DNA of 64,000 nucleotides from Bacteriovoracaceae bacterium (GTDB taxonomy: Bacteria > Bdellovibrionota > Bacteriovoracia > Bacteriovoracales > Bacteriovoracaceae), in NCBI GenBank assembly GCA_023137315.1, contig JAGLPP010000071.1, forward strand, positions 1-64,000. Reading direction: 5' to 3'. Of this stretch, positions 6,851-54,811 are shown in pieces. Both the position numbers and the translations under genes were made by a program. The notes beneath the pieces were generated by a model. It made no database searches and was not told the origin of the DNA. It saw only the letters and a program-made list of their open reading frames with translations. Each line of letters begins with the position of its first letter. The stretch's first letter is position 1.

Positions 6851-6921
6851 GTTTGATAGTGTATAATAAGAGCGGTTGCTTTTAAAGCTTGAAGTGATCA
6901 GGTGGCATTTTGGGTAAATTC

Positions 6922-6949: not shown

Positions 6950-7007
6950 ATTTGCTGAGGTGCAGTGCCTCTCAGTCTCGAATAACCGAATTTCAAGAGG
7001 TTGGGTA

Positions 7008-30072: not shown

Positions 30073-30186
30073 TACATAGTTTTCACCCAGTGTACTGTGC
30101 GTCTGATGTTGTGTCATTATCATATTGAGTGTGGATGACTCAATGTGCAAGGCCATGTGTAAAAAAATTCTATAAAAATACAAATA

Positions 30187-31305: not shown

Positions 31306-31317
31306 ATAGGAATGAAA

Positions 31318-34137
31318 ATGAATATTCTGGTGTTAACAACGAGGGAAAATTTTGTTTGGACAAGTATGCAGGAAATTATTCCAGGTATTGAGTCGTTGTG
31401 GTTGAATTTTGGAAAGCGAAATCATCAGGTGGAATGTCTTAATGTGGATGAACTTGATATTAAGCGTGATATGCCTAAATTTATACAAGCCGATATCATG
31501 GTTCTTACCGCCTTTAATTTGAATATTGTCCGCGCAGCTCAACTGGCAAGAAAAGTTTTGAATCTCGACAGTGTTTTTTATGTTTATTTGCATAATATGG
31601 CCACTATCTCGTGCTGGCCGTTTCATGAATGGGGAGCGTCGGATCTGTTTAACGAAAGGGATGTTTTTATTTCAACCTGTTCAAGGGATGCTGAGCTGAT
31701 AAAAAGAACTTACAAGGAACTTAATGTTCTTGTTCTGCCGTTTTATGTATCTGAGGAGGAAATAACAAGTGGAGAATGTAATAGTGATAGTCCATTTGTA
31801 TATATAGGTAGAATTTCAGAGCAAAAAAATCTACATACTTTGCTTGTTGCCTATTCGCTGTTTTTGCATAATTCAGAAAGCAGACCCAAGCTGATTATAT
31901 TTGGTAAAGAGGACAACCTGGGAAGTCCCAATATGGGAACGAAGGGGGACGGTTATCTTTCAAAGCTAAAGACGTTTGTATCCGAATTGAAAATAGTGGA
32001 TCAAGTGGAATTTCGTGGATTTGTTTCAAGGGACAAAATTTACAAGGAATTGGATGAACAGGATTATATATTTGTTTCAGCGAGTCTTCACTCCGACGAA
32101 AATTTTGGAATGGCGGCCCTTCGCTCATTATTGTCAGGCAAGAGATGTTTATTAAGTGATTGGGGTGGGCATTCCGATTATGTCCGGTATTTTGCTGAGA
32201 ATCTTCATCTTGTTCCAGTCCGAAAATCGGAAACCGGCCCTGTTCTTCATGTTGAGGAATTGATTCATGGAATGAATGTTATTACAGGGAAAAAGGCCAG
32301 CAAGGTAAAAACTCCTGAATATTACACACCGGATAAAATTTTAAACATTATTGAAGAGGATTTTAAGATCAGACGAAAGAACGCAAAGCTGGAGTTGACG
32401 GATCTGGCCTTGGAACTGTGGAAAAAGAGAAATTCCTTCAATGTTGGTTCCGATTGTGTTGACGAAAGTCCGTATCACAGGGGGACACGGATTTTTGATA
32501 ATTATAATGATAAAAACAGTCATATCTTTTTTCAGGCCTATGGAATGAAATCTGAATTTTTGTTTACTCCACGTGAGCGGGAGACTTATTTTTTGGTTCC
32601 ATGGGCAATGATTGAACAGGGAAATATTGTCATTTCAGATCCGCATAAGGGTAATTATTCTTTTAAAATTGGTCAGGGAAATTATTTGCTTAAAAGTTTT
32701 GGCGAAAAAAAGTGTTATGTCAGTTTGGATTTTATATCAAAGTTGGTTTCGCTCGGTGTTGCTTTAAAATGGGGGTTCGATATTGATATATCCAGGTTTG
32801 CAGGAGATCGTTGTCAGACAAGCATTGATATTTTGAAGGTGAAAGTTACAAATTTTTTTGAAGAGAATAAATTAAATCGTCCTTATTTTGCTGACGACCT
32901 TATGGAATTTGGCGGTAATAATGTTACAGAGGATGTGGTTTTGTTCGGTGGATATTTTCCAAGGTTTTTGGAGTCTGGAAACTGGCCGTTTGAAAACATA
33001 AGATTTTGGGTGATATGCCAAAGCATTAAAGAGGTTCTGACAGAGATCTTTAAAATACCGTCAAAGAGTGTATCCGTTATTCCAAGGGAAAAGCTCTTTT
33101 CTGTTAAATCGACAAAATTTCCAGATACATTGGACGGTCTTACGTTTGTTCATGCAGGCAGGATATCGGCGGTAAAAAATATTGAGTTGTTAATCTGGAC
33201 TGTTTATCAACTTCAAAAATCATACAATAAAAATGTGAAGCTTCAATTAATAGGTGCATTTGATGATAGTACACACGATTACTGGGGAGTTCCCGACAAT
33301 CATGATTATGAAAAACATGTTAAACATCTTATTGATGAATTGGACTGGAATGAAAAACCAATCTTGTGCAGGATGGTCGGCCATGATCAGTGGATAAAAT
33401 TGCTGGACAAGGATTCAGTTTTTGTAAGCTTGTCTTCATATCTTTCGGAGGATTTTGCGGTAAGTGTGGCACAGGCCATGGAGGCGGGATTTCCATGTAT
33501 ATTATCGGATTGGGGAGGGCATCGTGACACTGAGTCCGAACAGGTTTTAAAAATCCCCGCAAATTTAATAGTGCCCATCTTGAAACAGGTGTCGTTATAC
33601 AAGTTATCTGGATTGAAAATTGCAAAATGGATATTGGAAAACAGTCCTTGTCCTGAAAAAAAATTAAAGCAGAAAATGAGATTTCCGGAATCTTTAAGTA
33701 GATCCTCGTTGGACGGGATTCGTAGAACATTCGTGAAAAAATGGGGTGCAACATGTTTGCATGCGGCAAGGGGAAAGGGATGGATGTTCGCCGAAACCGA
33801 AAGTGGAAAACGGTTTTATGGTAAGCTGATTAGTGTTTTGGGAAATTTTAACGACGGGAAATATACAGTTCTGATTATAAAAGAGGGTATAAAGCATTTT
33901 ATGGATATTCCAGCTTCGGTGGAAAAATTTTTTGAAGATGAGAATTGCCCTTCCAATTACTTTATTCTAACAGTGACGGAGCTTGTCTCTAAAATTGGAA
34001 TAATAAAACTTCAAAATACATCGCAACTTGTTTTTACTTTCCCCAGGGAAAGAAATGAAAAGATTTATGAGTTTGCAGAAAATATACTTGGAAAAGGAAA
34101 TGTCAGTCAGCAACAACGATATATTAACGAGTCTTGA
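31318..34137 (+). CDS. Bifunctional protein with two GT4 glycosyltransferase modules
   Basis: A 939-aa protein built of two GT-B units. The first (about residues 1-380) shows FVYIGRISEQKNLHTLL, LIIFGKEDNLGSPN and SDENFGMAALRSLLSGKRCLLSDWGG. The second (about 540-800) shows VHAGRISAVKNIELLIWTVY, QLIGAFDD and EDFAVSVAQAMEAGFPCILSDWGG. The linker is about 160 residues. Each module keeps the acidic E-x7-E-like region, so the enzyme may add two sugars in succession. ATG 31318 is preferred (TAGGA 6 bases upstream) over 31312. The end overlaps the next radical SAM gene by 83 bases. Confidence 0.82.
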   Translation: MNILVLTTRENFVWTSMQEIIPGIESLWLNFGKRNHQVECLNVDELDIKRDMPKFIQADIMVLTAFNLNIVRAAQLARKVLNLDSVFYVYLHNMATISCWPFHEWGASDLFNERDVFISTCSRDAELIKRTYKELNVLVLPFYVSEEEITSGECNSDSPFVYIGRISEQKNLHTLLVAYSLFLHNSESRPKLIIFGKEDNLGSPNMGTKGDGYLSKLKTFVSELKIVDQVEFRGFVSRDKIYKELDEQDYIFVSASLHSDENFGMAALRSLLSGKRCLLSDWGGHSDYVRYFAENLHLVPVRKSETGPVLHVEELIHGMNVITGKKASKVKTPEYYTPDKILNIIEEDFKIRRKNAKLELTDLALELWKKRNSFNVGSDCVDESPYHRGTRIFDNYNDKNSHIFFQAYGMKSEFLFTPRERETYFLVPWAMIEQGNIVISDPHKGNYSFKIGQGNYLLKSFGEKKCYVSLDFISKLVSLGVALKWGFDIDISRFAGDRCQTSIDILKVKVTNFFEENKLNRPYFADDLMEFGGNNVTEDVVLFGGYFPRFLESGNWPFENIRFWVICQSIKEVLTEIFKIPSKSVSVIPREKLFSVKSTKFPDTLDGLTFVHAGRISAVKNIELLIWTVYQLQKSYNKNVKLQLIGAFDDSTHDYWGVPDNHDYEKHVKHLIDELDWNEKPILCRMVGHDQWIKLLDKDSVFVSLSSYLSEDFAVSVAQAMEAGFPCILSDWGGHRDTESEQVLKIPANLIVPILKQVSLYKLSGLKIAKWILENSPCPEKKLKQKMRFPESLSRSSLDGIRRTFVKKWGATCLHAARGKGWMFAETESGKRFYGKLISVLGNFNDGKYTVLIIKEGIKHFMDIPASVEKFFEDENCPSNYFILTVTELVSKIGIIKLQNTSQLVFTFPRERNEKIYEFAENILGKGNVSQQQRYINES

Positions 34138-34870
34138 AAGGGGAATCTTTTCGGAGATTGAATTTGAGATTAATCATAATTGCAACAGGGCCTGTGGTTA
34201 TTGTCCAAACCTTAAATACGAGCGTATGGAAAAAGGGGAAATGGCCCCGGAATTATTTGAAAAAATTATGATTCAACTCAGGGAGATTGGTTTTAAAGGC
34301 AGGGTTTCCTACCATTTTTATAATGAGCCGTTATTATGCAATAATTTGGATAAATTTATAAGGATGACCGGGGAATATCTTCCCGACTCAGTCAGCTATC
34401 TTTACAGTAATGGCACCCTGTTGACGAAAAAACGTTTTGTTCAACTTACACAAGCCGGTCTGGATAAATTCCATATTACAAAACATGAAAATGTTGGAGA
34501 AAATTACGTATTTGAAAAAGTGTACAATGGACTTCCGCAGGAACTGAAAAAGTTGGTGTTTTATGAGGATTTCAAGGATGTTGAATACAGTAACAGGGGA
34601 GGGCTTTTGCCAGATATAAAAAATGAATGGCCGGAGAACTTGCCTTGTTTTATACCTTTGCGCCTTGTGACGGTGACTCTTAAAGGCAATGTTCTTCCCT
34701 GCTATGAGGATTTTTTCCAGGTTTTAAGTATGGGAAATGTAAACGACGAGCATATTTTGGATATTTGGAATTCAAATAAATACAGGGAATTTCGGGAAAA
34801 TTTAAGACAAAAAGGTAACCGTAACAAGTATGATATATGTCGAAATTGCAATAATTTCAAAATAACGTAA
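34055..34870 (+). CDS. Radical SAM/SPASM-domain protein
   Basis: A 271-aa radical SAM enzyme with cluster motif CNRACGYC (EINHNCNRACGYCPN) and a short C-terminal SPASM-like part (LPCYEDFFQVLSMGNV... IWNSNKYREFRENL ... CRNCNNF). SPASM proteins use auxiliary Fe-S clusters, usually to modify peptides or sugars. ATG 34055 has AGGGA 5 bases upstream; it lies inside the end of the glycosyltransferase gene. A later ATG at 34100 has a poor ribosome site. It overlaps the next gene by one base and is clearly coupled to it. Confidence 0.75.
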   Translation: MKRFMSLQKIYLEKEMSVSNNDILTSLERGIFSEIEFEINHNCNRACGYCPNLKYERMEKGEMAPELFEKIMIQLREIGFKGRVSYHFYNEPLLCNNLDKFIRMTGEYLPDSVSYLYSNGTLLTKKRFVQLTQAGLDKFHITKHENVGENYVFEKVYNGLPQELKKLVFYEDFKDVEYSNRGGLLPDIKNEWPENLPCFIPLRLVTVTLKGNVLPCYEDFFQVLSMGNVNDEHILDIWNSNKYREFRENLRQKGNRNKYDICRNCNNFKIT

Positions 34871-36003
34871 TGATGAAAAAAAGTAATAAATATAAAATAG
34901 TTCAGGAGCTGGAAGCTGAACATATAAAAGCACGATATCGTGATCTGGGATTGCCTGAAAATTTTTGTCCTGTTCCGTTTACCACCATAATCGCCGAGCC
35001 TGATGGAAAAATTGGAAGCTGTCGCTTGAAAGGTTCCGGGTTTTCCATAGGAGATATTCGAGAGAAATCCATGGAGGAAATCTGGAATGATGAATTTATC
35101 AGAAAGTGGCGAAGGGAGTTTTTGACCGGTAAGGTTGAGATATGTGCCAGGGAAATCAAGCATAGAGGGTGCAATCTGTGCAGTGAGAACAACAAGTTGC
35201 TTGATTTCACGGATTTTAGCGAATTTCAGAAAAAACCCATCGTAAAATTTACGGCGAATTTTAACGGATTTTGCAATCTTCGTTGTCAGACTTGTCATAT
35301 TTGGCAAATGCCAAACGGACTCTACGATAAAATAAATTTTTGGGAAAAGGCGGAAAAGGATATTTTTCCGTACATAAGAGAGATTGATTTTCTCTCTGGT
35401 GAACCATTTTTACAGTCGGATACATTCAGACTTATAGATATGATTGTTCCAATGAATCCGGATTGCAGATGGTTATTCACCACTAATGCGCATTACAAGT
35501 TAGAAAATAAGCTGGAAGATTATTTGGACAGGTTGGTAATCAAGGGTATTATGATCAGTATTGATAGTTTTGAACCGGGAAATTTTTCAAAAATCCGCAA
35601 AAACGGTAATTTGGATCAGGTCTTGGAAACCACCTCTGCGATCAATAATTATCGAAATTCTAGAGAGAAAAGAGGTCTGGAGAGGTTTCCCATCCAGCTT
35701 GGATTTTTATTTCAGAAGGATAATTGGCATGAGCTTGGATCGGCACTTGATTATTGTGAAAAAATGAATTTCAGACCCCATATTCAATATTGTTATGAGC
35801 CCGTAGAGTATTCGGTTCTTGATTTTGATATTGAAAAACAAAAAGAGATACTTTATTGGTATCTGAATAATTTGAGTTGGGAGCATATTGAAATGGGGAT
35901 CAGGGCCATTACTCCAACCTTGTATAAGCTGGAAGAGATAGATCGCGCTGATTTTCTTATGAGATTGAGGAAGAAAAAACTCGCAGAGGCGAAAGATGAT
36001 TGA
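34870..36003 (+). CDS. Radical SAM protein with N-terminal twitch/SPASM-like domain
   Basis: A 377-aa protein in which the cysteine-rich auxiliary domain comes first. It begins with FCPVPFTTIIAEPDGKIGSC, then SIGDIREKSMEEIWNDEF and C-x2-C in GCNLCSEN (about residues 33-110). The radical SAM core follows with CNLRCQTCH (FNGFCNLRCQTCHIWQ) and EIDFLSGEPFL. This permuted order matches the 'N-terminal twitch' radical SAM type, also seen in the protein at 38988. It overlaps neighbours on both sides (1 and 8 bases). The substrate is unknown; a peptide or lipid-linked sugar is possible. Confidence 0.78.
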   Translation: MMKKSNKYKIVQELEAEHIKARYRDLGLPENFCPVPFTTIIAEPDGKIGSCRLKGSGFSIGDIREKSMEEIWNDEFIRKWRREFLTGKVEICAREIKHRGCNLCSENNKLLDFTDFSEFQKKPIVKFTANFNGFCNLRCQTCHIWQMPNGLYDKINFWEKAEKDIFPYIREIDFLSGEPFLQSDTFRLIDMIVPMNPDCRWLFTTNAHYKLENKLEDYLDRLVIKGIMISIDSFEPGNFSKIRKNGNLDQVLETTSAINNYRNSREKRGLERFPIQLGFLFQKDNWHELGSALDYCEKMNFRPHIQYCYEPVEYSVLDFDIEKQKEILYWYLNNLSWEHIEMGIRAITPTLYKLEEIDRADFLMRLRKKKLAEAKDD

Positions 36004-36373
36004 TTTTTCAAACGTTGATGAAATTACCTTTAATCAATTAAAGGAAGTGCTTGCGAAAAGGGGACGTTTGCCAATCAGGGTTGTGACCAGTTCAATGGAA
36101 CCTGTTATTATGGCAGGAGATACGCTGGAAGTTGTCAGCAAAACGGATGAGCTTAAAAAGTTTGATATAATTGTTTTTTGGAGAGACAGCAAACTTGTAG
36201 TACATTATATATGGGGAAAAAATTTTTTGCAGGGTGTGAGCTATACCACCCGTTCCCTGGAGATGCCCAACCACAACGAATTACCTGTGCCTGAGTGTAA
36301 TATTCTGGGATATGCGGATGGGGTGAATATTGGTTTTTGGACTCGTGTAAGGTTACAATTGTTTTATGGATAA
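35996..36373 (+). CDS. S24/S26-family-like peptidase fold protein
   Basis: A 125-aa protein with the signal-peptidase/LexA beta-fold signature: S33 in VVTSSMEPVIMAGDTLEV (S26: G.SM.P.l..GD), then FDIIVFWRDSKLVVHYIW and a C-terminal GYADGVN. The usual catalytic Lys segment is not obvious and there is no membrane anchor, so activity is uncertain. Similar small S24/S26 proteins occur in modified-peptide and export clusters. It overlaps the upstream radical SAM gene by 8 bases and the ABC permease gene by 8 bases, tying it to export. Confidence 0.65.
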   Translation: MIDFSNVDEITFNQLKEVLAKRGRLPIRVVTSSMEPVIMAGDTLEVVSKTDELKKFDIIVFWRDSKLVVHYIWGKNFLQGVSYTTRSLEMPNHNELPVPECNILGYADGVNIGFWTRVRLQLFYG

Positions 36374-37142
36374 TAATTTCAAGTATAAATTACTAATCAG
36401 ACAAATTTATGAATTGGCCAAGGCCAATATGAGATCACGATACAGAAAAACGATAGCGGGATTTTTGTGGGTCGTTTTAAACCCGATCATAATGTACTCT
36501 GTTCAATCATTCGTATTTCGAAAATTCTTAAAATTGGAGGTTCCCAACTACTCTCTTTTTCTATTGTGCGGTCTTTTACCATGGATATTTATAGTTATGA
36601 CTGCTGATATGGTGACGCCTATTTTGGATTTTTCAGGAGAACTTCTAAAAAGTTTCAAGATGAGTCCTGCCGTCCTGGTTTATGCCCAGGTATTGGATAA
36701 TTTTATAAATTTTATCTTTGCCTTTTTTCTGATTCTTATTCCAACATGGATCTTTTCAGATCAGACATTTTCCGGGGTGATTTTTCTTCCTGTGGCACTT
36801 GCGTTGCTTGTAGCAGGAGTTTCCAGTGCCTGCTGGTTATTGTCGGTAATGCAGGTATTTTTCAAGGATATACGATTTATAGTATCATTTTTAACCAGTA
36901 TTTTATTTTTTCTGACGCCTGTTTTTTACCCAGTGGAATTTGTCCCCGAAAAGTACAGGATATTTGTTGATTTTAATCCCATATATGCCATGATTGAACC
37001 ATTTCGATACTGTATTTATAATTATAATTTGGAGCTTCTATGTAAAAGTCTTCTTAGAAGCTTTGTTGTCTGTTGCATGATTTTTACGCTTGCTGTTGGT
37101 TTTTGGAAGAGGAAGAAAAATGAATTCTATCTCAGTCTCTGA
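36366..37142 (+). CDS. ABC-2 polysaccharide/glycolipid exporter permease (Wzm-like)
   Basis: A 258-aa inner-membrane protein with about six hydrophobic segments. The N-terminus has YELAKANMRSRYRKTIAGFLWVVLNPI, the classic Wzm/TagG/KpsM pattern ('l...dlk.ryr.s.lG..W.ll.Pl'), and a later ILFFLTPVFYPVEFVPEKYR loop. It would form the channel that exports a lipid-linked glycan with the ATPase encoded next. The overlap of 23 bases with the ATPase gene implies coupled translation. Confidence 0.9.
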   Translation: MDNNFKYKLLIRQIYELAKANMRSRYRKTIAGFLWVVLNPIIMYSVQSFVFRKFLKLEVPNYSLFLLCGLLPWIFIVMTADMVTPILDFSGELLKSFKMSPAVLVYAQVLDNFINFIFAFFLILIPTWIFSDQTFSGVIFLPVALALLVAGVSSACWLLSVMQVFFKDIRFIVSFLTSILFFLTPVFYPVEFVPEKYRIFVDFNPIYAMIEPFRYCIYNYNLELLCKSLLRSFVVCCMIFTLAVGFWKRKKNEFYLSL

Positions 37143-37893
37143 TACTGTTTTAAAGATTGAAAAATTAAATATTGTTTTCAATTCGTATGTTTACAGACGT
37201 GAAACAATCAGAGATCGCTTTGTTCGTGCCGTTGGCAGTCCGCTGAGTTCGTTAAGGAGTAATAAAAACCAGTTGCATGTTCTAAAGGATTTTAATCTTG
37301 AGGTCAAAAAAGGCGAGAGACTTGGAATACTCGGCCATAACGGTTCCGGGAAAACCACACTTTGCAGGTGTATTGCCGGAATGTTGATACCATCAACCGG
37401 ACGAATATCCGTAAACGGAACCCGTCGATCAATATTTAATACAACAATTGGGATTATTCCCGAACTTACTGGAAGGGAGAATGCTTATTTACTGTCAGTT
37501 TTGATGTTTCCTGAACTTGAAAATGATGAAAGGAACGATTTACTGGAGGAGGCATTGGAATTCAGTGAGCTTGGAGATTTTCTTGATACCCCGTATATGC
37601 ATTATAGTAAGGGAATGCAGGCAAGGCTTTGTTTGTCGGTAATTTCATCGAATGAATGTGATCTTCTTATCCTTGACGAGGTGTTCGACGGTGCCGATAT
37701 GTTTTTTCAGGAAAAAATTGCCAAAAGAGTTCTTAATTTGATTAAAAATTCAGGTGCTGTTGTTTTTGTTTCCCACAATCTTGAACAAATCAGAACGGCA
37801 TGCAATCAAGTTATGGTTATAGATGGTGGTAATGCATGGTTCAAGGGGGATGTCGAAGAGGGAATCAAGCTTTATACGTCAAGAGGTCATTAA
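37120..37893 (+). CDS. ABC exporter ATPase (Wzt-like)
   Basis: A 257-aa ATP-binding subunit: Walker A GHNGSGKTTL (about residues 72-81), signature YSKGMQARLCLSV, Walker B LLILDEVFDGAD and switch His in VSHNLEQI. The long N-terminal preamble before the Walker A (IEKLNIVFNSYVYRRETIRDRF) is typical of Wzt/TagH/KpsT proteins. There is no C-terminal carbohydrate-binding domain, so chain-length or cap recognition would lie elsewhere. ATG 37120 has GAGGA upstream. Its last 29 bases overlap the convergent nucleotidyltransferase-like gene. Confidence 0.9.
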   Translation: MNSISVSDTVLKIEKLNIVFNSYVYRRETIRDRFVRAVGSPLSSLRSNKNQLHVLKDFNLEVKKGERLGILGHNGSGKTTLCRCIAGMLIPSTGRISVNGTRRSIFNTTIGIIPELTGRENAYLLSVLMFPELENDERNDLLEEALEFSELGDFLDTPYMHYSKGMQARLCLSVISSNECDLLILDEVFDGADMFFQEKIAKRVLNLIKNSGAVVFVSHNLEQIRTACNQVMVIDGGNAWFKGDVEEGIKLYTSRGH

Positions 37894-38854
37894 ACGAAAA
37901 ATTTTCGCGATTTTTTATCAATACGTTAATACCTGACATAAGAGAATCTTTTTCGGGAAGATCGACCATCTCAAGCAGATCTCGAATTAAATTAAGATGA
38001 ATTAAAAGATTTGTAGGTCTTGGGTCAAGTTTACTTTGAGTATAAAGACCCCAGATTTCCCAGCGAATTTGTTCCTGTAACAATTCGGATTCATGAGTGG
38101 AAAGTCTGCCAATTGATTTCAGATCGTGCTTTAAGTTTTCATGACAGTAGGAAATCCCAATCCAGCGGAATGGATATATCAGGATAAAATTTCTTTTATT
38201 TTCGATTTTTCCGTATGGGACTTCAAGATTTTTATGAATTCTTGAATCCACAGAAAAAAGATTACGGATAAAATTTCCGGCATCAATTTCAATGCTGTTC
38301 AACTCTGTGATCAATACTTCAATAAGATTATCAAATGATAATGGGTGTGGAAATTTGATGTTTAACAGCGAAAGATGGTGGTTCCATTTTTTTATGCGAT
38401 AATCGGGGATTGTGCGAAGATTATTTTGGTCGGCTTCCAGATTCTTACATAAAAAAACGATTTTTTGATATATGTCTTTCTGTCGTAGCTTTGTGGAATG
38501 CAAATTTAACAGGTGTGGGTCCCGCAAAAACTCATAACGGTTGATGAATGGTATAAAATCTGTGGCATCGGTGTAAGAATACAAGTTGATTTCACCAAGG
38601 AAAGGAATGATTTTTTTTAATTTCGAGTAGCGTTTTACGACTTTGAATGGATTGAAGTCACCGTGAAAATAAAAAGTTAAATCGAGATCACTTAGAGCAC
38701 AGACGATATTTTTTAATCTAAGACTGTTTCGGCTCCAGATATTTACCGGAAATCTCCAATAGAAAATTTTAACAGCTATCAGGCCAATATGGTATGGGAT
38801 GGTTTGTATCCAATAAGGCAGTAAAGAGAGAAATCTATAAGGTTTTACTTTCAT
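37865..38854 (-). CDS. Degenerate nucleotidyltransferase-like protein
   Basis: A 329-aa protein with SLRLKNIVCALSDLDLTFYF near residues 43-62, which resembles the Pol-beta-type nucleotidyltransferase core (GS...G....SDiDL). The Gly-Ser start of the motif is replaced by NSLRL, but the S-D-L-D-L acidic pair is kept. The rest is helical and not recognised. It may be an active or degenerate nucleotidyltransferase. It is divergent from the cassette gene at 38988 with 133 bases between, and it overlaps the exporter ATPase gene tail to tail by 29 bases. Confidence 0.5.
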   Translation of the reverse strand: MKVKPYRFLSLLPYWIQTIPYHIGLIAVKIFYWRFPVNIWSRNSLRLKNIVCALSDLDLTFYFHGDFNPFKVVKRYSKLKKIIPFLGEINLYSYTDATDFIPFINRYEFLRDPHLLNLHSTKLRQKDIYQKIVFLCKNLEADQNNLRTIPDYRIKKWNHHLSLLNIKFPHPLSFDNLIEVLITELNSIEIDAGNFIRNLFSVDSRIHKNLEVPYGKIENKRNFILIYPFRWIGISYCHENLKHDLKSIGRLSTHESELLQEQIRWEIWGLYTQSKLDPRPTNLLIHLNLIRDLLEMVDLPEKDSLMSGINVLIKNRENFSFNDLLTYKA

Positions 38855-38987: not shown

Positions 38988-40379
38988 TTGGATTTGAATA
39001 GAAAAGAAAAAATAGAGAGAATTGAAAGAATTAACCATGTATCGTCATGCTTTTGTCTGGCTAAATGGTTACAGGTAACCGTTGATCTGGTTCATGGGAC
39101 AAATCATAGCTGTCATCATCCGGTAAGACAGAATATCCCGTTGGAAGGGTTGGAGGAAAATCCATCCAGTTTGCATAATACCAAATATAAAAAAATATTG
39201 CGACGACAGATGTTAAACGGACGACGGCCTGCAGAATGTAAATACTGTTGGCAGATCGAGGATGTAGTTGGTTACGAATGGTCTGATCGTATGATTAAAT
39301 CCCTGGACGAATGGGCCTTTCCATATTTGGATGAAATTATCAAGCTTCCGTGGGATGCAGATGTAACACCCACCTATGTTGAGGTCATGTTTGATAAAAT
39401 TTGTAACATGTCCTGTGGCTATTGTATTTCAGGAGTAAGCTCCAGCATTGAAAATGAGATGGAAAAATACGGGCCTTTCAAATTTGTGAAACCTTACAGA
39501 GCGGAAGAGGGGTGTGATTTTCCACTTGGCCTGTCACAAGATGAGGGGGAAAGACCTTACGTGCGTGCCTTTTGGAAATGGCTTCCAGATATTGCAAAAA
39601 AATTGCATGTTTTGCGGATTACCGGCGGTGAACCACTTCTTTCAAAAAATACCTTCAAGATTTTGGATTACTTTGATGAGAATCCTTCGGAGAATTTAAT
39701 ACTGGCCCTCAATACCAATCTCTGTGTAGATGATAAAATAATTGATAGGTTTATTGACAGGCTGAAGCCTATTCTTCAGCAGGGAAAAATTAAACAATTT
39801 GAGATTTATACCAGCGTGGATACATTTGGTGGACAGGCTGAATATATTCGCAAGGGTTTGAACTACCGTAAATTTGTGAATAATATTTGCAAATTCAAAG
39901 AGTCTTTTTCAGATGTATCTATCGTTATAAATGTTACCTACGGAATTTATTCAATTCCTTCGTTTAAGAAATTTCTTGAGGAAATTTATGAATTAAAGCA
40001 AAAATACGGCAGATTGGTGGTGGATATTTCGTATTTGAGCAGTCCGGAATATTTGCGTGCGAATATGGTAACAGAGGATTTTTATCCGACGGTCAGGGAA
40101 TGTCTGGACTATATGGAGAGTAAATTCTCACCGTCCGGCGATGATGGATTTTCCCGCTATGAAATTGATAAATTTACTCGTGTATATCTCTGGATTATCG
40201 CCAAGGCCCCTCCAGAAGAGCATAATTTTAACAGGGCCGGTTTTTACGCATTCGTTTCACAATTTGATAAGAGATATTATATGGAAGAAGGCCGTTTTAT
40301 AGAGGTTTTTCCAGAGTACCGAAAATTTATGGTTTACTGTAGGAAGGCTTTCTGGTTTATAAATAAATTAACAGCTTGA
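38988..40379 (+). CDS. N-terminal-twitch radical SAM peptide-modifying enzyme (predicted)
   Basis: A 463-aa protein with an N-terminal cysteine-rich domain (CFCLAKWLQVTVDLVHG, NHSCHHP, then C-x2-C in ECKYCWQIEDVVG), followed by the radical SAM core with CNMSCGYC (about residues 137-145) and LRITGGEPLLSKNTF. The layout equals that of the protein at 34870 and fits 'N-terminal twitch' radical SAM enzymes. A PqqD-like gene follows 13 bases later, and a small peptide gene after it. It is therefore predicted to modify that peptide. The start is uncertain: the frame is open from TTG 38859, with no ATG; TTG 38988 or 38994 are equally possible and leave room for a promoter. Confidence 0.8.
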   Translation: MDLNRKEKIERIERINHVSSCFCLAKWLQVTVDLVHGTNHSCHHPVRQNIPLEGLEENPSSLHNTKYKKILRRQMLNGRRPAECKYCWQIEDVVGYEWSDRMIKSLDEWAFPYLDEIIKLPWDADVTPTYVEVMFDKICNMSCGYCISGVSSSIENEMEKYGPFKFVKPYRAEEGCDFPLGLSQDEGERPYVRAFWKWLPDIAKKLHVLRITGGEPLLSKNTFKILDYFDENPSENLILALNTNLCVDDKIIDRFIDRLKPILQQGKIKQFEIYTSVDTFGGQAEYIRKGLNYRKFVNNICKFKESFSDVSIVINVTYGIYSIPSFKKFLEEIYELKQKYGRLVVDISYLSSPEYLRANMVTEDFYPTVRECLDYMESKFSPSGDDGFSRYEIDKFTRVYLWIIAKAPPEEHNFNRAGFYAFVSQFDKRYYMEEGRFIEVFPEYRKFMVYCRKAFWFINKLTA

Positions 40380-40392
40380 ATGGAGGATGGAT

Positions 40393-40686
40393 ATGACCGA
40401 CAAAAAATACGATAAGAGTACTATCTTTGAGAAACGGAATGATGTCGTTTCCAGGGCGAACAATGATGAGAATGTAACTGTTTTGATGAAAATGGATGAT
40501 TCATCCTCGTTTTATAAAATTGACGGGGTTGCACAGCATGTCTGGGGTTTGATAAATGAGCATAAATCAGTAGATGAAATGTTGCGAATTTTGGAGAGTA
40601 AATATGATGCCAGTGCTGAGAAAATCAGTGAGGATGTTCATAAATTTTTGCACAAGCTCCTTGATTTGAATATTATTGAATTTTGA
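40393..40686 (+). CDS. PqqD-like peptide-binding chaperone (RRE protein)
   Basis: A 97-aa winged-helix protein of the PqqD type: SSFYKIDGVAQHVWGLINE (PqqD: 'Y.Ln.tga.iw.l'), HKSVDEMLRILESKYDA and VHKFLHKLLDLNIIEF. PqqD-type domains are RiPP recognition elements that hold the precursor peptide for a radical SAM enzyme. ATG 40393 has GGAGG 6 bases upstream; the ATG at 40387 touches that site. It shares the start sequence MTDKK with the S74 protein that follows. It is the only PqqD homologue in the window, and lies between the radical SAM gene and the peptide gene. Confidence 0.85.
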   Translation: MTDKKYDKSTIFEKRNDVVSRANNDENVTVLMKMDDSSSFYKIDGVAQHVWGLINEHKSVDEMLRILESKYDASAEKISEDVHKFLHKLLDLNIIEF

Positions 40687-40712
40687 ACAAGTGGGTACGG
40701 CCGTGTTATAAC
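40683..40712 (+). promoter_or_regulatory. Predicted promoter of the S74 peptide gene
   Basis: TTGAAC (40683-40688), an 18-base spacer and TATAAC (40707-40712) with an extended -10 (TGT before it). The -35 overlaps the stop codon of the PqqD-like gene. Transcription would start near 40719, about 30 bases before the ATG at 40751, so the peptide gene can be transcribed independently and more strongly than its modifying enzymes. An imperfect inverted repeat (GTTATA...TATAAC) overlaps it and could be an operator. Confidence 0.55.
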
Positions 40713-40750
40713 TGGTCAATTATATAACATCTGAAATCATGAGGTTCATT

Positions 40751-41248
40751 ATGACCGATAAAAAACAGGCATATTATTTTGGTGGTATTGAGAAATGTGT
40801 GGATGATAAATCGAACTGTGATAAATCATTGAAGAAATATGATTTCGGTGGAATTGAGGAATATAATCTTCAGGAAATTGAAAAAGAGATTTTAAACGAC
40901 AGTATATATCTGGATGTATTTGCAGGATCGGATAAGCGGTTTAAAACGGATATAAGTCCGGTTTCGGACGGGTTGAAAAGTATTCTCAACTTGAACGCAT
41001 ATAAGTTTTCTTACAAGACTGAGGATTTTCCTGAAAACAATTTTGATTCCAGTGAACAAATTGGAGTTATGGCGCAGGATGTGGAGAAGGTTTTTCCGCA
41101 AGCGGTTAAAACTGATGATAATGGATATCGTTATGTAAATTATGCCATGCTTACACCGGGACTGATTGAAGCGGTAAAAGACCTTAATTCCATAGTGGTT
41201 CAGCAGGGAGAGCTGATTAAAAAACTTCAAGAACAACTCAAAAAGTAG
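40751..41248 (+). CDS. Candidate precursor peptide fused to a self-cleaving S74 chaperone domain
   Basis: A 165-aa protein. Residues 1-59 carry two copies of Y-x-F-G-G-I-E (Y8-E14 and Y30-E36) separated by a Lys/Asp segment with C16 and C23. Residues 60-150 form a Peptidase_S74 intramolecular chaperone domain: S60-D-K-R-F-K65 is the Ser/Lys dyad with the 5-residue spacing of phage endosialidases, followed by IGVMAQDVEKVFPQAV and YRYVNYAMLTPGLIEAVKDL. The last 20 residues are a short coiled coil. Autocleavage before S60 would free a 59-aa peptide. ATG 40751 has GAGG 6 bases upstream. Its end overlaps the GT2 gene by 11 bases, tail to tail. Confidence 0.75.
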   Translation: MTDKKQAYYFGGIEKCVDDKSNCDKSLKKYDFGGIEEYNLQEIEKEILNDSIYLDVFAGSDKRFKTDISPVSDGLKSILNLNAYKFSYKTEDFPENNFDSSEQIGVMAQDVEKVFPQAVKTDDNGYRYVNYAMLTPGLIEAVKDLNSIVVQQGELIKKLQEQLKK

Positions 41249-41948
41249 ATCCTGATATTCGTAATTGAAAAAATAATTTTAAGACGGTAAAAGTAACCCC
41301 TGAAATATTTTTTAGTGTGAAGGCCCTGGAGTTTCTGGAAGATTCAAATACATCAATAACGTCAATCTGGGTATAACTGTGATTTTTGAATAGTAACTTG
41401 AGAAGCATTTCGGCCTCAAATGCGTAGCTGTCGGCCTCAATTTGAATGGTTTGGTAAAGTGATTTTTTTAATAAAATTGAACCATTGTAATATTTTAGAT
41501 CCTTGGAAAAAAGAATATTAATGATTTTTGTGTAGAGCTTTGAAAGGATTTGTCTAATTAGTGGTCGATCGAAGGTATTGGCCTGACAGGAAATGACAAT
41601 GTCAGCTTTCCCTTTTTCAGCATAGATTTTTTTAAGCTGGTCACTTGTGGTGTCATTTTTTCCGTTAACACAAATAAGATAATTTCCTGTTGCTCTTTGA
41701 AAACCCTGTTTTGTGCAATGGCCTTTTCCTTTTGATTTTTTATTGTGTACGGGAATAATACGATTGTCACCGGCCGATAATGATTGAGCAATTTGATATG
41801 TTTTGTCCGTACTTCCATCATTAACGATAATAATTTCATATTCGTCCCAGCAATGGAGCGAATCTTTTAGTGTTTTGACCGTGTTGCTTAACTGGTCCTC
41901 TTCATTTAAAGCGGGTACAATTATTGAGATGGAGTTGTCATTGTCCAT
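41238..41948 (-). CDS. GT2-family glycosyltransferase with altered DxD motif
   Basis: A 236-aa GT-A glycosyltransferase resembling dolichyl/undecaprenyl-phosphate sugar transferases: ISIIVPALNEEDQLSNTVKTL, YEIIIVNDGSTDKTYQIAQSL, then GKGHCTKQGFQRATGNYLI. Where the metal-binding DxD should follow (aDaDl), the sequence reads ICVNGKNDTTSD, so the usual acidic pair is missing. It may have reduced or altered activity, or use another residue. A polyprenyl-phosphate sugar product would supply the GT-C-like membrane proteins nearby. Start ATG 41948 is divergent from the DegT gene. Confidence 0.8.
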   Translation of the reverse strand: MDNDNSISIIVPALNEEDQLSNTVKTLKDSLHCWDEYEIIIVNDGSTDKTYQIAQSLSAGDNRIIPVHNKKSKGKGHCTKQGFQRATGNYLICVNGKNDTTSDQLKKIYAEKGKADIVISCQANTFDRPLIRQILSKLYTKIINILFSKDLKYYNGSILLKKSLYQTIQIEADSYAFEAEMLLKLLFKNHSYTQIDVIDVFESSRNSRAFTLKNISGVTFTVLKLFFQLRISGSTF

Positions 41949-42004
41949 TTGTGAAATATAACAAAGAGAAGGACCTTAGGAAAGATTTATATGAATCTCA
42001 AGTC

Positions 42005-43318
42005 ATGAAGAAACTGGTATTTAAAATTCCACGTGCCATTTATTATATGGATTTTTTTGAACCCCTGAAATCATTATTTAAATGGTTTTCAGGAAAGGGA
42101 AAATCCGGACCAAAAGTACAGGAATTTGAAGAGGCCTTCAAGCAGCTTTTTGGTCATGAGCATTTGACAATAATGCCGCATGCAAGAGTGAGTTTATATT
42201 TTTGTCTTAAATCATATGAATATGATCTTGGTGATGAAGTTCTGATGACTCCGGTCAATTTGCCTGACATGGTTAACATGATTCGAATTTGTGGTCTTCG
42301 CGAAAGATATGTAGATATTAACAGACATGATTATTCCATTGATCTTGAGGATGCAAAAAACAAACTATCCACAAGAACCAAATTTCTGTTTGTTACGCAT
42401 CTTAACGGAATTGTTCCCGATATGGATGCTATTTTAAAATTTGCAGGTGATCATAACTTGATTCTTATCCAGGATTGTACCCAGAGCATTGATTGTCGTT
42501 ATAATGGAAAAAGGCTGGAGACATACAGTGAACTTAGTTTTATGGCCTTATGTGATTTGAAGGTAATTCATACGCATATGGGAGGAATGATTGTTTCTCA
42601 AAATAGCGAGAGATTAAAAAGAATCAAAAAAATTGCCGACGCTGAGCTTTTGCCACTTAGTCCCAAATATCTTTTCAGATTTGTTGCTGAGGATATGATT
42701 GCAAATATTCTTCTCAATCGTGTACTTTTCTCAATCATTATTTTTCCAATCATGCGGTTTTTGACGATCATGTTGGGGGCAAATAATATCCAGGGATTGA
42801 CCAGGGGAGATGGACTTAAAATAGGGAATATTATTATTTTAAAGTCCATTTTTGGAGGAGGAGGAAATCTTTTAAGAGAGAGTGTTCCGGATTACATGCT
42901 TTACAGATTTTCAACCTTGCAGGCTGAAATAGGTTTGAAGAGATTAAGGAAATTCAAGGAAATTGATCAAAAGAGAATTGAAAATTCAAAAAAATTTCAT
43001 GAATTTTTGGATATTGGTGATAAATATACAGCAAAATACGAGGATGATAGAACTCATGTCTATTGGAAATTTCCAATTATTGTCAAGGATTATGAACGGC
43101 TTCATGATCATCTCTGTCGGTTTGGGATTGATTCCGCCCGTTCAAACCTTCCCTGTCTTTCCACTCTTGAACACTTCAAGGGAGGTGATCAGACACCAAA
43201 TGCTGAATTTATGGTTAACTCGTCCTTGTATATTCCACTCCATTATTATTTGAATGATAAGGAAATATCTTTTATTGCAGGGAAGGTGACTGAATTTTTT
43301 TCAGACGGTTCTTTATGA
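42005..43318 (+). CDS. DegT-like aminotransferase with hydrophobic insert
   Basis: A 437-aa PLP enzyme of the DegT/StrS fold: GPKVQEFEEAFKQLFG, TIMPHARVSLYFCLKSY, VLMTPVNLPDMVNMI, LIQDCTQSID, and PLP-lysine position K186 in MALCDLKVIHTHMGGMIV. Between residues about 215 and 260 lies a long hydrophobic stretch (FVAEDMIANILLNRVLFSII, then FPIMRFLTIMLG) absent from soluble family members and suggesting membrane attachment. ATG 42005 is chosen (frame open from 41924). It lies 4 bases short of the next gene, which overlaps it. The protein at 45050 is a close architectural relative. Confidence 0.75.
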   Translation: MKKLVFKIPRAIYYMDFFEPLKSLFKWFSGKGKSGPKVQEFEEAFKQLFGHEHLTIMPHARVSLYFCLKSYEYDLGDEVLMTPVNLPDMVNMIRICGLRERYVDINRHDYSIDLEDAKNKLSTRTKFLFVTHLNGIVPDMDAILKFAGDHNLILIQDCTQSIDCRYNGKRLETYSELSFMALCDLKVIHTHMGGMIVSQNSERLKRIKKIADAELLPLSPKYLFRFVAEDMIANILLNRVLFSIIIFPIMRFLTIMLGANNIQGLTRGDGLKIGNIIILKSIFGGGGNLLRESVPDYMLYRFSTLQAEIGLKRLRKFKEIDQKRIENSKKFHEFLDIGDKYTAKYEDDRTHVYWKFPIIVKDYERLHDHLCRFGIDSARSNLPCLSTLEHFKGGDQTPNAEFMVNSSLYIPLHYYLNDKEISFIAGKVTEFFSDGSL

Positions 43319-45057
43319 AAAGAGACTTGTTTTATTTTATTATAATATTTGTTGTTTTTAGCCTTGCTGTAATAGTGGCCACAGGTTTCGATCCCGAGGT
43401 TTTGAAGGTTGATAAGGGATGTTATGGAAATAATACGGCCTCTGTTCTTGAAGACGGGGATCTCAATACAATTAATCAGGCACTTCCAAGGGATAGGTGG
43501 CTGGTTACAAAAACCTATAATCATCCTGATTTTCACGATCATGGGATAGCTACACTCTGGATTCCGTTTTTTGCTTATTGGAAGCTCCTTGAGGTGTTTG
43601 ATGTGGAACCAGGGGTGTATAAGTCCGAAAAATATGATGTAAGTCAGATTGTTGCAAATATTTTTTATGGAATGATATGTCTGGTTCTTATTTACAGATT
43701 CATGTTTTCATTTTTTGATGATAAGAGAAAAATACTGCTGTCAATTGGCACAGTATGTTTTGGAACATCATTTTACTGGTATTTTCTTTTTCATCCGGCA
43801 AATTCCGATATTACAATTACCATTCTTCCCGTCATCCTGGTAGGTCTGTATTTATATTTGCAAAATAGTGATAACAAATGGAAGTGGGGATTGTTCGGGC
43901 TGATTTTTGGATGTATGTCTATAATCAAGGTCAGCATGGTGTTTTATCTGTTGATATTGTTACATAATGTCGTCCTCTATTGGAGATACAATCCCTGGAA
44001 CACAGTTAAAGTCCGCTATCTGCCATTCGTATCTGGTTTTATTATATCGATCATACCTTTTTTGATTAATGAAAGAATAAAGTACGGCTTTTTTAATTAT
44101 GGCCATCTAAGCCTGTTTAACGAAAGCTATTATCTTTTGAAGGAGGTCGTTCTCGGGCCATCGGGTTATTTTTATGTTTCACCAATTTATTTTATTTTTC
44201 TCTGTTCTTTAATCATTTATCTCATTCGTCTTTGCAGGAATAAAAACAGTTTGAATACAGGGTTACACTCATTTTTTGCATTTTTGGGGATAGTCCTTGT
44301 GGTGAAAACACTTATTGAATCATTCACATTTGGTGGTAACGGCGGTCTTGGCGCCAGGCACTTTATAGTGGACACTTTTGTCTGTGTACTTTTTATACAT
44401 TTTGTTACAAAGAAACTGAAGTTTTATAAATTGTGGATTTTATATATTCCGGCAATCCTTTGGACGTTAATGGTATCCGTATGGTATTTTCATCATCTTC
44501 CAAATTCACCGGTTACGTGGGGTCAGAATTATATCGTCGATATGGATTTTTTCCGTCCGACAATTCTTTTGATGCTTGAGAGATTTTCGATTATCGTAGA
44601 TAACCTTGGATCATTATTATTCGCAGCTTTCAAGTATTCTCCGCTAATAGCTATTTCATCCTTTCTTGTTATCAAACTCTATAAAATGCCACGTAAAAAA
44701 GATCTTGAATACAAGGTCTTTAAGATTTTCGGGTTGTACATCTTTGGATGTTATCTTTTGATCACATGCCTCAATGTGGTTTTTAATTCTGAAAATGTGG
44801 AGCTGATGAAGCAGGACAATTTTTTTTCAAAAACAGTAGTTGCCGGCGGTGTGAACCTTTATTCCTATGATGAAAATGTTTCGTCCATGTTGCGAATGAG
44901 CCGTTATTTGTCGAAACGAGGTGATTTGGAAGGGGCAGAAAAAATTGAAAAAACAAAACAGAAGTATATCAAACAAATAATGGGGGAAATCCTTGTTGAC
45001 CCGGTTGGATTTAAAAAGAATCTTGAGAAGGAAATTTTAAGGCGTCCATTTAATTGA
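43315..45057 (+). CDS. Polytopic membrane protein, GT-C glycosyltransferase-like
   Basis: A 580-aa inner-membrane protein with about 10-11 hydrophobic segments. The first periplasmic loop (about residues 25-90) ends in NHPDFHDHGIATLWIPFFAYW, resembling the acidic/His first loop of GT-C enzymes (ArnT/PMT-like), which use polyprenyl-phosphate sugars. It overlaps the DegT gene by 4 bases (ATGA). The C-terminal 90 residues are soluble and contain EGAEKIEKTKQKYIKQIMG. A role in attaching a sugar to a lipid or protein at the periplasmic face is inference. Confidence 0.6.
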   Translation: MKRDLFYFIIIFVVFSLAVIVATGFDPEVLKVDKGCYGNNTASVLEDGDLNTINQALPRDRWLVTKTYNHPDFHDHGIATLWIPFFAYWKLLEVFDVEPGVYKSEKYDVSQIVANIFYGMICLVLIYRFMFSFFDDKRKILLSIGTVCFGTSFYWYFLFHPANSDITITILPVILVGLYLYLQNSDNKWKWGLFGLIFGCMSIIKVSMVFYLLILLHNVVLYWRYNPWNTVKVRYLPFVSGFIISIIPFLINERIKYGFFNYGHLSLFNESYYLLKEVVLGPSGYFYVSPIYFIFLCSLIIYLIRLCRNKNSLNTGLHSFFAFLGIVLVVKTLIESFTFGGNGGLGARHFIVDTFVCVLFIHFVTKKLKFYKLWILYIPAILWTLMVSVWYFHHLPNSPVTWGQNYIVDMDFFRPTILLMLERFSIIVDNLGSLLFAAFKYSPLIAISSFLVIKLYKMPRKKDLEYKVFKIFGLYIFGCYLLITCLNVVFNSENVELMKQDNFFSKTVVAGGVNLYSYDENVSSMLRMSRYLSKRGDLEGAEKIEKTKQKYIKQIMGEILVDPVGFKKNLEKEILRRPFN

Positions 45058-46342
45058 ATGTGCGTGAAAAGTAGCGGTTTAAAATTTCTGCGGCCCTTTT
45101 AATATCATGTTTTGAATTTTTATGATTAAGATCAATAAAAAAACAATTATTCTTGATAAATCGTGAGTCAGGAAGATCCTGATAATATCTGGAAAAAGCC
45201 TCTTCTTCGTTGCAAAGATTTAGTCCGTATCCGCCGGTATCAACACCCCTTCTTATTAAAAATAGTTGAAAGTGTTCAGGATCATCTACATATACCGGTA
45301 TCCTGAGCGCAAATTCAGTATCGTGGAAAAAAGATTTCGCAATATGAGGTTGAACCCTGTCGGTTATTGTATCCAGAAAAATATGTTTAAGCTGTTTTCT
45401 TTTTTTTACATTTTTATCCCAATTTGAAAAGCAGACAATTCCAAAATGGGCCATCCATGAATTAAAAAAGAAATAAAATTCTTCAGGGAAATTCTTTCTT
45501 AATACCGGGATATCATCGAAAAATACATCATCAGGATTGAATTTTGAAACCATATTGAGTTTGTGCAGATTTGAAAAACGCTCAGGGCTTAATATGGAAA
45601 TTAACAGAAGAAGCGGCCAGGTAAAAATTTTGAACACAACTTTTGATGTTAATATTTCAATTTTAATATTTTCGAAAATTTGTTTCAGAAAATATATTTT
45701 TTGTGGAGGATGAAGGCGGAAATTTTTGGATATATCTTTCATCTTATGCAGAAAATTGGGGTTGTTTACAGCGACGGCACCACCGAGAAGTGTTGAGATG
45801 TTTTTGCCTATTGAAAAGGAGATGATATTAAAATCTCCAAATGAGCCGACCTTTTGACTGCTAACGGAACATCCAATGATTTGCGATGTATCCTCAATAA
45901 GTATAAGTTCTTTCTGCTTGCAGTATTCTTTGATGTTGTTGATATCCGGGCAAAGTCCGCTGAGCCAGGTTACAAGGACAATATCATCTTTTTGATGATT
46001 TTTTTCCTTTAGCTTTTTCAAGCTGATTCCATGATTATCCGGATCCATGTCGACAAATACAGGATTATGTCCGGAGATAATTATTGCGTTTACTATATCC
46101 GGTATCGTAATGGGTGCCAGAAAAACGTTATGTTTACGCTCCAGTCCTAAACTTTTTAGAACGGCCAGAAGAGAGACCCTGCAAGTTGAAAACAAGAACA
46201 CATCATCAGCCTGAATGAACTTTTTTAATTTATCCTCAAATCTTGGCACATGACTGGTATTTTTCATTGAAGTGAAAATCAGTCGAAATAAAAAAATCAG
46301 AAGTTGATTAAACGGAATATAAAATCGGCCTCGAGCGAGCAT
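45050..46342 (-). CDS. DegT-like aminotransferase with hydrophobic insert (second copy)
   Basis: A 430-aa relative of the protein at 42005, with an N-terminal hydrophobic segment (FYIPFNQLLIFLFRLIF), DegT motifs (FLAPITIPDIVNAI, LILIEDTSQIIG) and the PLP lysine K180 in ISFSIGKNISTLLGGAVA. A second hydrophobic insert follows (ILTSKVVFKIFTWPLLLLIS). The pattern suggests a membrane-bound aminotransferase acting on lipid-linked or membrane-delivered sugars. ATG 46342 is preferred, with GGGG upstream; ATG 46354 is possible. It is convergent with the 43315 gene, with an 8-base overlap. Confidence 0.75.
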   Translation of the reverse strand: MLARGRFYIPFNQLLIFLFRLIFTSMKNTSHVPRFEDKLKKFIQADDVFLFSTCRVSLLAVLKSLGLERKHNVFLAPITIPDIVNAIIISGHNPVFVDMDPDNHGISLKKLKEKNHQKDDIVLVTWLSGLCPDINNIKEYCKQKELILIEDTSQIIGCSVSSQKVGSFGDFNIISFSIGKNISTLLGGAVAVNNPNFLHKMKDISKNFRLHPPQKIYFLKQIFENIKIEILTSKVVFKIFTWPLLLLISILSPERFSNLHKLNMVSKFNPDDVFFDDIPVLRKNFPEEFYFFFNSWMAHFGIVCFSNWDKNVKKRKQLKHIFLDTITDRVQPHIAKSFFHDTEFALRIPVYVDDPEHFQLFLIRRGVDTGGYGLNLCNEEEAFSRYYQDLPDSRFIKNNCFFIDLNHKNSKHDIKRAAEILNRYFSRTFN

Positions 46343-46406
46343 GTAAATCCCCATGGCATTATTTCATCACGTGTATTATAGTATAAATTGATTGCAGGTC
46401 AAATAT

Positions 46407-47414
46407 ATGAAACTGAATTTTATCCACTTATGCTTTAATCTTGTGCGAAAGATGAATCTGCCGCGCTCCCCAATAATCTGGAGCAGAATTTTGTTTTATT
46501 GGGTGGTGGTGAAACTTTCGTTTTTTTTAAAGACCATCAATTTGAGATTGCCGCCTTTAAATACACTTGTCTTTGTAACTTTGAGGTGCAATAAAGCGTG
46601 TTCTTTTTGTCATTATATTGATGGTCTTAATTGTGAGAATTCGGATGAATACGAAATGAATCTTGATACTTTTACAAGAATTCTTAATTCAAGGAAAATT
46701 TGTTCTGTGGGAAGAATTTGTTTTTATGGTGGGGAACCACTTTTAAACAGTGATATTTTTAAAATGATTGATCTGGCAAAATCAAGAAACTATATTACAT
46801 CAATTTTTACAAATGGATTGTTATTGGAAAAATACAAGGAGAAAATTCTTGAAGGAAATGTCGACTTTATCACAATATCCTATTATCAGGAGGATATTGA
46901 TAACATTTTTAATATTGTAAAGGAACTATCCCCTCATGTAGCAATTAATATCAGCTATATGGTGTCAGAGGGGCGTCTGGATGAATTACCCGTGGTATTT
47001 GAAAACTGTAATCTCATGGGTGTTGGAATGATTACGATTGAGAACTATTTGGAGAATGATCACCATAGTGAAATTCCGTTATGTGATCACTCTGAGCAAT
47101 TTTATTCAATGAAGAATGAGCTTACAATGAAGTATTCCGGGCATTATCTTATACGTTGGTCGGAACTTGCTTCAGATTGGAAGAAAAATCGTAAAATATC
47201 CTGTACCCATTTTTGGGATACGAGGGTAATTAATGCCAAGGGAGAACTGTTACCGTGCTGTCATTATCCTTTAAGTGAGTTTGATGACGGGGATGGTTTT
47301 TTAAATACGGATAAAATGAGATTTCTCAGAAAGTCTTTTAAGGATGGTAGACCGAACAGGCTATGTGAAAATTGTCATTTTCTTCAAAACTCAGAGTTGT
47401 GGTTTAAATTTTAA
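46407..47414 (+). CDS. Radical SAM/SPASM protein with hydrophobic N-terminal extension
   Basis: A 335-aa radical SAM enzyme. Residues 1-55 form a hydrophobic/amphipathic extension (ILFYWVVVKLSFFLKTINL) before the core, whose motif is CNKACSFCHY. FYGGEPLLNSDIFKMID follows. The C-terminus has a SPASM-like Cys set (CTHFWDTRVINAKGELLPCC, then CENCHFL). The extension suggests membrane attachment. ATG 46407 is chosen over TTG 46392. It is convergent with the next radical SAM gene (4-base overlap). The substrate is unknown. Confidence 0.8.
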   Translation: MKLNFIHLCFNLVRKMNLPRSPIIWSRILFYWVVVKLSFFLKTINLRLPPLNTLVFVTLRCNKACSFCHYIDGLNCENSDEYEMNLDTFTRILNSRKICSVGRICFYGGEPLLNSDIFKMIDLAKSRNYITSIFTNGLLLEKYKEKILEGNVDFITISYYQEDIDNIFNIVKELSPHVAINISYMVSEGRLDELPVVFENCNLMGVGMITIENYLENDHHSEIPLCDHSEQFYSMKNELTMKYSGHYLIRWSELASDWKKNRKISCTHFWDTRVINAKGELLPCCHYPLSEFDDGDGFLNTDKMRFLRKSFKDGRPNRLCENCHFLQNSELWFKF

Positions 47415-48451: not shown

Positions 48452-48460
48452 TGGTGCAGG

Positions 48461-49525: not shown

Positions 49526-49528
49526 TTA

Positions 49529-49981: not shown

Positions 49982-50043
49982 GTGGTTGCCTTGATTCTTT
50001 TGATACAACTATACTATTATTAAGATTGTAGCATTGGTATTTG

Positions 50044-54754: not shown

Positions 54755-54811
54755 ACGGTCAACTTGGTTTTTAAGAATGATTAATATGTGCAATAGTGTA
54801 TCATCAAGGTG

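Follow-up and report, generated by a model that had tools for sequence, protein, structure and literature searches.

The question raised by this locus is whether a radical SAM enzyme, a PqqD-type protein and a small protein with a Peptidase_S74 domain, encoded in succession on one strand, belong to one system, and whether the S74 protein is the substrate of that system as well as its own protease. In this study, the locus was analysed within the window, a stretch of 64,000 nucleotides from a Bacteriovoracaceae bacterium (contig JAGLPP010000071.1), and compared with its relatives in other genomes. Three genes in tandem, for an N-twitch radical SAM enzyme (TwiSAM), a PqqD protein and an S74 protein of 165 aa, had been read from the letters of the sequence, and profile matches confirmed them in this order at 38988-41248 (Table 1), with 13 bp between TwiSAM and PqqD and 64 bp between PqqD and the S74 gene. 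The TTG start of TwiSAM was inferred from homologues; a GAGG lies about 6 bases 5' of the S74 gene start, and an in-frame ATG at 40739 is a possible alternative start. TwiSAM reached 294 bits over its length against NF033640, 'twitch domain-containing radical SAM' (cut-off 170), its CxxxCxxC motif reads CNMSCGYC, and no solved relatives of it were found by sequence. The PF13884 match spans residues 60-120 of the S74 protein and takes in the whole domain (profile positions 1-58 of 58), and a single S74 gene was found in the source genome.

Table 1. Coordinates of the cluster genes and of the parts of the S74 protein in the window, with the basis of each assignment.
Feature	Position	Strand	Basis
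P407, conserved protein	25918-27141	-	alignment; 20/30 loci
Glycosyltransferase GT4b	26972-28291	-	PF00534; 18/30 loci
Carbamoyltransferase	28351-30183	-	PF16861, PF02543; 17/30 loci
Double GT4 glycosyltransferase (GT4x2)	31312-34137	+	PF00534, two stretches; 18/30 loci
SPASM280, radical SAM/SPASM protein	34028-34870	+	PF13186, PF04055; 11/30 loci
Twi377, second N-twitch-type radical SAM	34870-36003	+	NF033640 80.7 bits, below cut-off 170; 16/30 loci
S26, archaeal-type signal-peptidase-like protein, candidate leader peptidase	35996-36373	+	TIGR02228 E=8e-9, below its cut-off; alignment of 14
ABC-2 exporter membrane subunit, Wzm-like	36366-37142	+	PF01061; 17/30 loci
ABC exporter ATPase, Wzt-like	37090-37893	+	PF00005; 15/30 loci
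P329, nucleotidyltransferase-like, invariant SDxD	37865-38854	-	alignment; 19/30 loci
TwiSAM, N-twitch radical SAM enzyme	38988-40379	+	NF033640 E=1.6e-87; orthologues at S74 loci; S74-genome-specific clade
PqqD-type RiPP recognition element, discrete, 97 aa	40393-40686	+	PF05402 E=1.3e-12; co-occurrence
S74 protein, 165 aa, proposed precursor with leader, core and self-cleaving follower	40751-41248	+	PF13884 E=5e-17; 30-sequence alignment
Extra leader-motif copy YYFGGIE, residues 8-14, unique to the window protein	40772-40792	+	sequence; alignment
Leader YDFGGIEEYNLQEIEKE, residues 30-46, proposed PqqD-binding motif Y-x-F-G-x-[ILV]	40838-40888	+	conserved in 30 sequences; docked on PqqD in fusion model
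Core NDSIYLDVFAG, residues 49-59	40895-40927	+	pairwise identity 0.85; absent from long S74 proteins
Peptidase_S74 domain, S60/K65 dyad, predicted cut 40927/40928	40928-41110	+	PF13884; AF2; Foldseek
C-terminal helix, residues 131-164, expected to form a trimeric coiled coil	41141-41242	+	AF2 helix; coiled-coil role by MyRF analogy
Outer cluster: GT2, two DegT aminotransferases, rSAM/SPASM proteins	41238-54793		kept in close relatives only

Distribution of the S74 protein and its link to PqqD and TwiSAM

The short S74 protein was observed at 30 distinct loci, of which almost all belong to Bdellovibrionota: the window, 26 from the 84,980 species genomes scanned, and three that came up only in a separate genome search. 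The 26 loci of the scan fall in Halobacteriovorax, Bacteriovoracaceae, Bdellovibrio/Bdellovibrionales MAGs and a few broadly named MAGs. Among 97 related genomes the short type occurs in 12, the window's and 11 others (open frames of 147-170 aa, 44-61% identity), with at least 124 bits, against 75 bits or less for the remaining S74 matches, which are mostly long fibre-like frames. The S74 domain, described beforehand from phage tail spikes, is not restricted to phages: predatory bacteria of this phylum carry it on long adhesive fibres. A scan of a viral collection gave one weak match, to S74 only, phage tblastn gave no match covering 80%, and among the PHROGs matches listed, 24 of 25 begin only at about residue 51 and phrog_6921 at residue 38. 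A phage or prophage origin of the cassette was therefore rejected, no phage relative of the leader-core having been found.

Conserved co-occurrence in other genomes had been set beforehand as the first test of the cassette, and it was recovered by profile, by synteny, by fusion and in the TwiSAM clade; the association of the parts is almost certainly genuine. A PqqD of the same subfamily lies near the short S74 protein, or is fused to it, at 25 of the 30 loci within the DNA stretch covered; at L068 and L069 it was not found within that stretch, and L047 is at a contig end. In the 97 related genomes a close PqqD (E<=1e-9) accompanies 11 of the 12 short-S74 genomes and none of the 85 others (Fisher p=1.2e-13); at the looser threshold of E<=1e-3 the counts become 11/12 and 9/85. 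PqqD proteins of more distant kinds are widespread in the family, so that the co-occurrence claim is restricted to this PqqD subfamily. G041 has an S74 protein with no PqqD detected. Across 369 genomes of the phylum, the leader-core was found in 24 at E<=1e-6, and all 24 have PqqD. Moreover, PqqD, leader-core and S74 are fused as one protein at three loci of two families (L065, L066 and L067), the PqqD domain being a Pfam match in two of them and seen by alignment only in the third, and at L063 the PqqD and S74 genes share one frame split by a single TGA. That the S74 protein is the substrate bound by PqqD is very likely.

TwiSAM was detected at 18 of the 30 loci within the DNA stretch covered and is found farther off elsewhere, for example 43 kb away in G020. 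In the tree, 19 TwiSAMs of S74 genomes form one group with L098 (SH-aLRT 97), and L098 belongs to G014, itself an S74 genome with a split cluster. Two more divergent TwiSAM paralogues at S74 loci (L061 and L104) fall outside the group. Tandem N-twitch radical SAM paralogues without S74 or PqqD nearby were also noticed at L101 (G049:C41:65200-83100) and L102 (G063), L101 holding eight N-twitch radical SAM matches in 18 kb.

The surrounding glycan and export cluster

The proposal of a three-gene system holds in that the genes are linked, but the system is far larger, extending over about 25.9-54.8 kb of the window. In the ten genome regions compared, conservation begins at P407 (25918), with nothing upstream common to them, and fades after about 54.8 kb, beyond which essentially only the gene at 54809-56272 is common, with two relatives. 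This gene encodes a papain-family protease with a Lectin_like domain (PF18560) and is kept in the clusters of G002 and G048. The genes that recur among the loci are PqqD, P407, P329, TwiSAM, GT4b, GT4x2, Wzm, Wzt, carbamoyltransferase, Twi377 and S26, and gene order and strand vary widely between them. Twi377 adjoins S74 in several relatives, and the true start of SPASM280 probably lies downstream. The Ser/His pair of S26 is intact in 14 of 14 sequences, its PDB search giving only spurious short matches; P329 matched no Pfam family by profile and nothing significant in the PDB, and P407 had neither a Pfam nor a PDB match by profile.

In G014 the cluster is split between C1 (about 421900-430000) and C2 (165000-184900), with carbamoyltransferase, GT4b, P407, TwiSAM, P329, S26, Wzm and Wzt in one place and S74, PqqD, Twi377 and SPASM280 in the other; the presence of both halves indicates that they were co-retained in evolution without adjacency. 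Again, a block of P329, P407, GT4b, Wzm, Wzt, S26 and a TwiSAM paralogue occurs at L118 (G056:C7, about 1339-9080) without S74 or PqqD nearby. It would be a sister system with a different peptide or none, and it follows that some of those enzymes may serve the glycan and not the peptide.

Proposed leader and core and predicted self-cleaving domain of the S74 protein

Alignment of the 30 sequences gave the consensus YxFGGIxEFNLEEIExEVLNDSVYLDVFAG, in which the V before YLDVFAG is variable (x), followed by SDxxFK. Mean pairwise identity is 0.85 over residues 49-59 and 0.73 over the leader-core (residues 30-59), compared with 0.42 for the S74 domain, so the 30 residues upstream of the domain are more conserved than the domain itself. 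Y53 and D55-G59 are invariant in the core; YLDVFAGS was among the two patterns of the genome scan, which is biased towards it, but the same residues are invariant in the 12 sequences retrieved without that pattern. In long S74 proteins of related genomes the sequence before the cut is unrelated and carries neither YLDVFAG nor the leader-core. YxFGGIE occurs twice in the window protein (residues 8-14 and 30-36; 40772-40792 and 40838-40858) and once in the other aligned sequences, the Tyr of the leader motif is missing in L067, and no convincing second leader copies with other cores were found in 59 genomes.

The view of S74 as a built-in protease is supported by the SDxxxK dyad, which has Ser in 29 of 30 sequences, Cys in one (L056) and Lys (K65) in all 30; as the dyad is retained, the predicted G59/S60 cut seems to be under selection. 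L056 (9992-10414) reads VFAG/CDPLFK across the predicted cut, with Cys in place of the cleavage Ser and the Lys retained, a natural swap of the nucleophile. The AF2 model gave the S74 domain a pLDDT of about 90 or more, with low confidence for residues 1-59, and the closest solved fold to the domain is the MyRF ICA domain (7dc3, Foldseek E=7e-6).

For the other end of the peptide, the natural fusion L066 was cut after the core (146 residues) and modelled with AF2, giving a pLDDT of 85.8 and a pTM of 0.77, with 91 for the leader block and 53 for the last residues. Right after YEFGQ a leader strand (residues 122-126) lies beside the PqqD domain, and a helix then runs to residue 143. TbiB1 with its lasso leader (5v1u/5v1v) is the nearest fold to this model (TMt 0.85, the PqqD winged-helix fold), and TbiB1 (5v1u) is also the nearest solved sequence to the window PqqD. 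Of the 59 residues before the predicted cut, the N-terminal half resembles a leader that PqqD would bind. The sequence-only reading had the S74 domain replace the leader protease and release a mature 59-aa peptide. The first part does not stand, since the domain lies C-terminal to the peptide and would remove a follower; as for the second, the S26 protein with its intact Ser/His pair is a better candidate for leader removal, and the mature peptide probably has fewer than 59 aa.

Proposed mechanism, alternatives and known systems

A short precursor with a conserved leader stands here next to a modifying enzyme and an RRE, the arrangement by which RiPP clusters are recognised. We consider it rather probable that the S74 protein is a RiPP-type precursor with a leader, a near-invariant core and a self-cleaving C-terminal follower. 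The mechanism that we infer would run as follows. The S74 protein would be the ribosomal precursor of a modified peptide; PqqD, as a separate protein or as a domain of the same chain in the fusions, would bind the leader YxFGGIxEFNLEEIE and hand the core VLNDSxYLDVFAG (residues 47-59) to TwiSAM for radical modification, and the second radical SAM enzyme and the glycosyltransferases would perhaps also act on the core. The follower would trimerise, and S60 with K65 would cut after G59, so that the freed core would end in Gly. Leader removal would fall to the S26 protein, and Wzm/Wzt would take the product to the cell surface, probably in glycosylated form. That this amounts to a new RiPP class, in which the precursor brings its own follower protease and a tail-spike-type trimeric chaperone, and in some lineages its own RRE, with a strongly conserved and probably glycosylated peptide of predatory bacteria as the product, is a tentative possibility that we would neither press nor dismiss; just as tentatively, one chain of RRE, leader, core and S74 could in such a class recognise, present and release its own core.

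The invariance of the core is unusual for a defensive peptide, which is a counterpoint to the RiPP reading, and it would be expected of a structural element. The S74 protein could accordingly be no precursor but a small scaffold or chaperone, trimeric and part of a surface-glycan system, with PqqD and the radical SAM enzyme acting on the glycan or tethering the scaffold, and with the leader as a docking tag; the core genes are mostly glycan genes (GT4, carbamoyltransferase, DegT, Wzm/Wzt), and TwiSAM, S26 and P329 are also found without S74. We consider this unlikely, given that the conserved stretch lies outside the S74 fold and is of low confidence by itself, that YLDVFAG is dispensable in long S74 fibres, and that PqqD-type domains bind peptides, with the fusions tethering PqqD to this one. 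The fixed Y53, D55 and F57 across distant genomes of the phylum, unlike most bacteriocins, would also suit a dedicated S74 protein that, like PqqA for PQQ, gives rise to a redox cofactor or another conserved small molecule and not to an exported peptide; with an exporter and glycosyltransferases in the same locus and no dependent oxidoreductase seen among the conserved genes, this is quite improbable.

Equally little credence is given to a shrunken prey-adhesion fibre, a vestige derived from the long S74 (MAT) fibres of predatory bacteria; the cluster would glycosylate it for display at the surface. The phylum and the autocleaving domain are the same (PMC10769870), but the S74 protein, which begins MTDKKQAYY, has by inspection no evident signal peptide and lacks an N-terminal beta domain and a fibre repeat; it is tied to PqqD and TwiSAM, and the leader-core is missing from long S74 proteins. 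Variable gene order and strand would fit chance neighbours in a gene-rich polysaccharide island, an exceedingly improbable explanation, as chance adjacency is ruled out by the fusions, the co-inheritance, the TwiSAM clade and the retention of the split G014 cluster. If the precursor reading is true, a self-cleaving follower would be added to the logic of peptide natural products, the compact PqqD-leader-core-S74 chain would be testable in one construct, one N-twitch radical SAM clade would gain a concrete candidate substrate, and a surface or secreted molecule, strongly conserved in predatory Bdellovibrionota, would be indicated.

The sequence-only reading knew of no RiPP system with this arrangement, and likewise no description of one, or of one with an S74 domain, was found in the open-licence literature. 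The grouping of an RRE, an archaeal-type signal peptidase and an NTP transferase within capsule loci is already known for RiPPs (PMC13381572), and the linear polyphosphorylated peptide (LPP) RiPPs of Bacillota (PMC13381572) share with the S74 cluster a discrete lasso-type RRE, an archaeal-type signal peptidase, an NTP-transferase-like protein, capsule loci and a Tyr-led leader motif. Unlike LPP, the S74 cluster has radical SAM enzymes, a proposed S74 follower and an invariant core, and no HprK kinase or MsbA-type transporter, which are LPP features, was found among the window proteins scanned. Lasso and LPP leaders follow [Y/W]xxPx[L/V/I/A/F] (PMC13381572), whereas the S74-protein leader YxFGx[I/L/V], alike by eye, has Gly where they have Pro, and the LPP leader YxxPxVLxHQxIxFETxxS differs from that of the S74 protein. 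At L122 (G045:C205, 6795-10897), S74 is absent and a PqqD gene lies beside Wzm/Wzt and a protein that by eye resembles an HprK-type kinase; this may be an LPP-like cluster in the phylum.

With the lasso RRE-leader pair (TbiB1 and the TbiA leader, 5v1u/5v1v) the S74 cluster shares the PqqD fold and a YxxPxL-like leader, docked in the model; no Asn-synthetase-like cyclase (macrolactam synthetase) or B2 peptidase, both lasso features, was found among the cluster proteins scanned. The PQQ system (PqqA, PqqD, PqqE) and other radical SAM RiPPs likewise combine a PqqD-type carrier and a radical SAM enzyme of the twitch/SPASM class, but the twitch domain of TwiSAM is N-terminal (NF033640) and the S74 cluster adds a proposed follower and glycan genes. 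S74 self-cleavage has been demonstrated in a Bdellovibrio fibre (PMC10769870), and the MAT fibres of Bdellovibrio, of the same phylum, have the same SDxxxK self-cleavage domain; they are, however, secreted proteins of about 1000 aa with an N-terminal beta domain of about 130 aa and without PqqD or radical SAM, compared with 165 aa for the window protein. The MyRF ICA domain (7dc3) has the closest S74 fold, a Ser/Lys dyad and trimer dependence, in a eukaryotic membrane transcription factor unlike the window protein. Bottromycin-type RiPPs (PMC10885120) share a C-terminal follower that needs removal, and while theirs is removed by a separate amidohydrolase, the S74 follower would cut itself.
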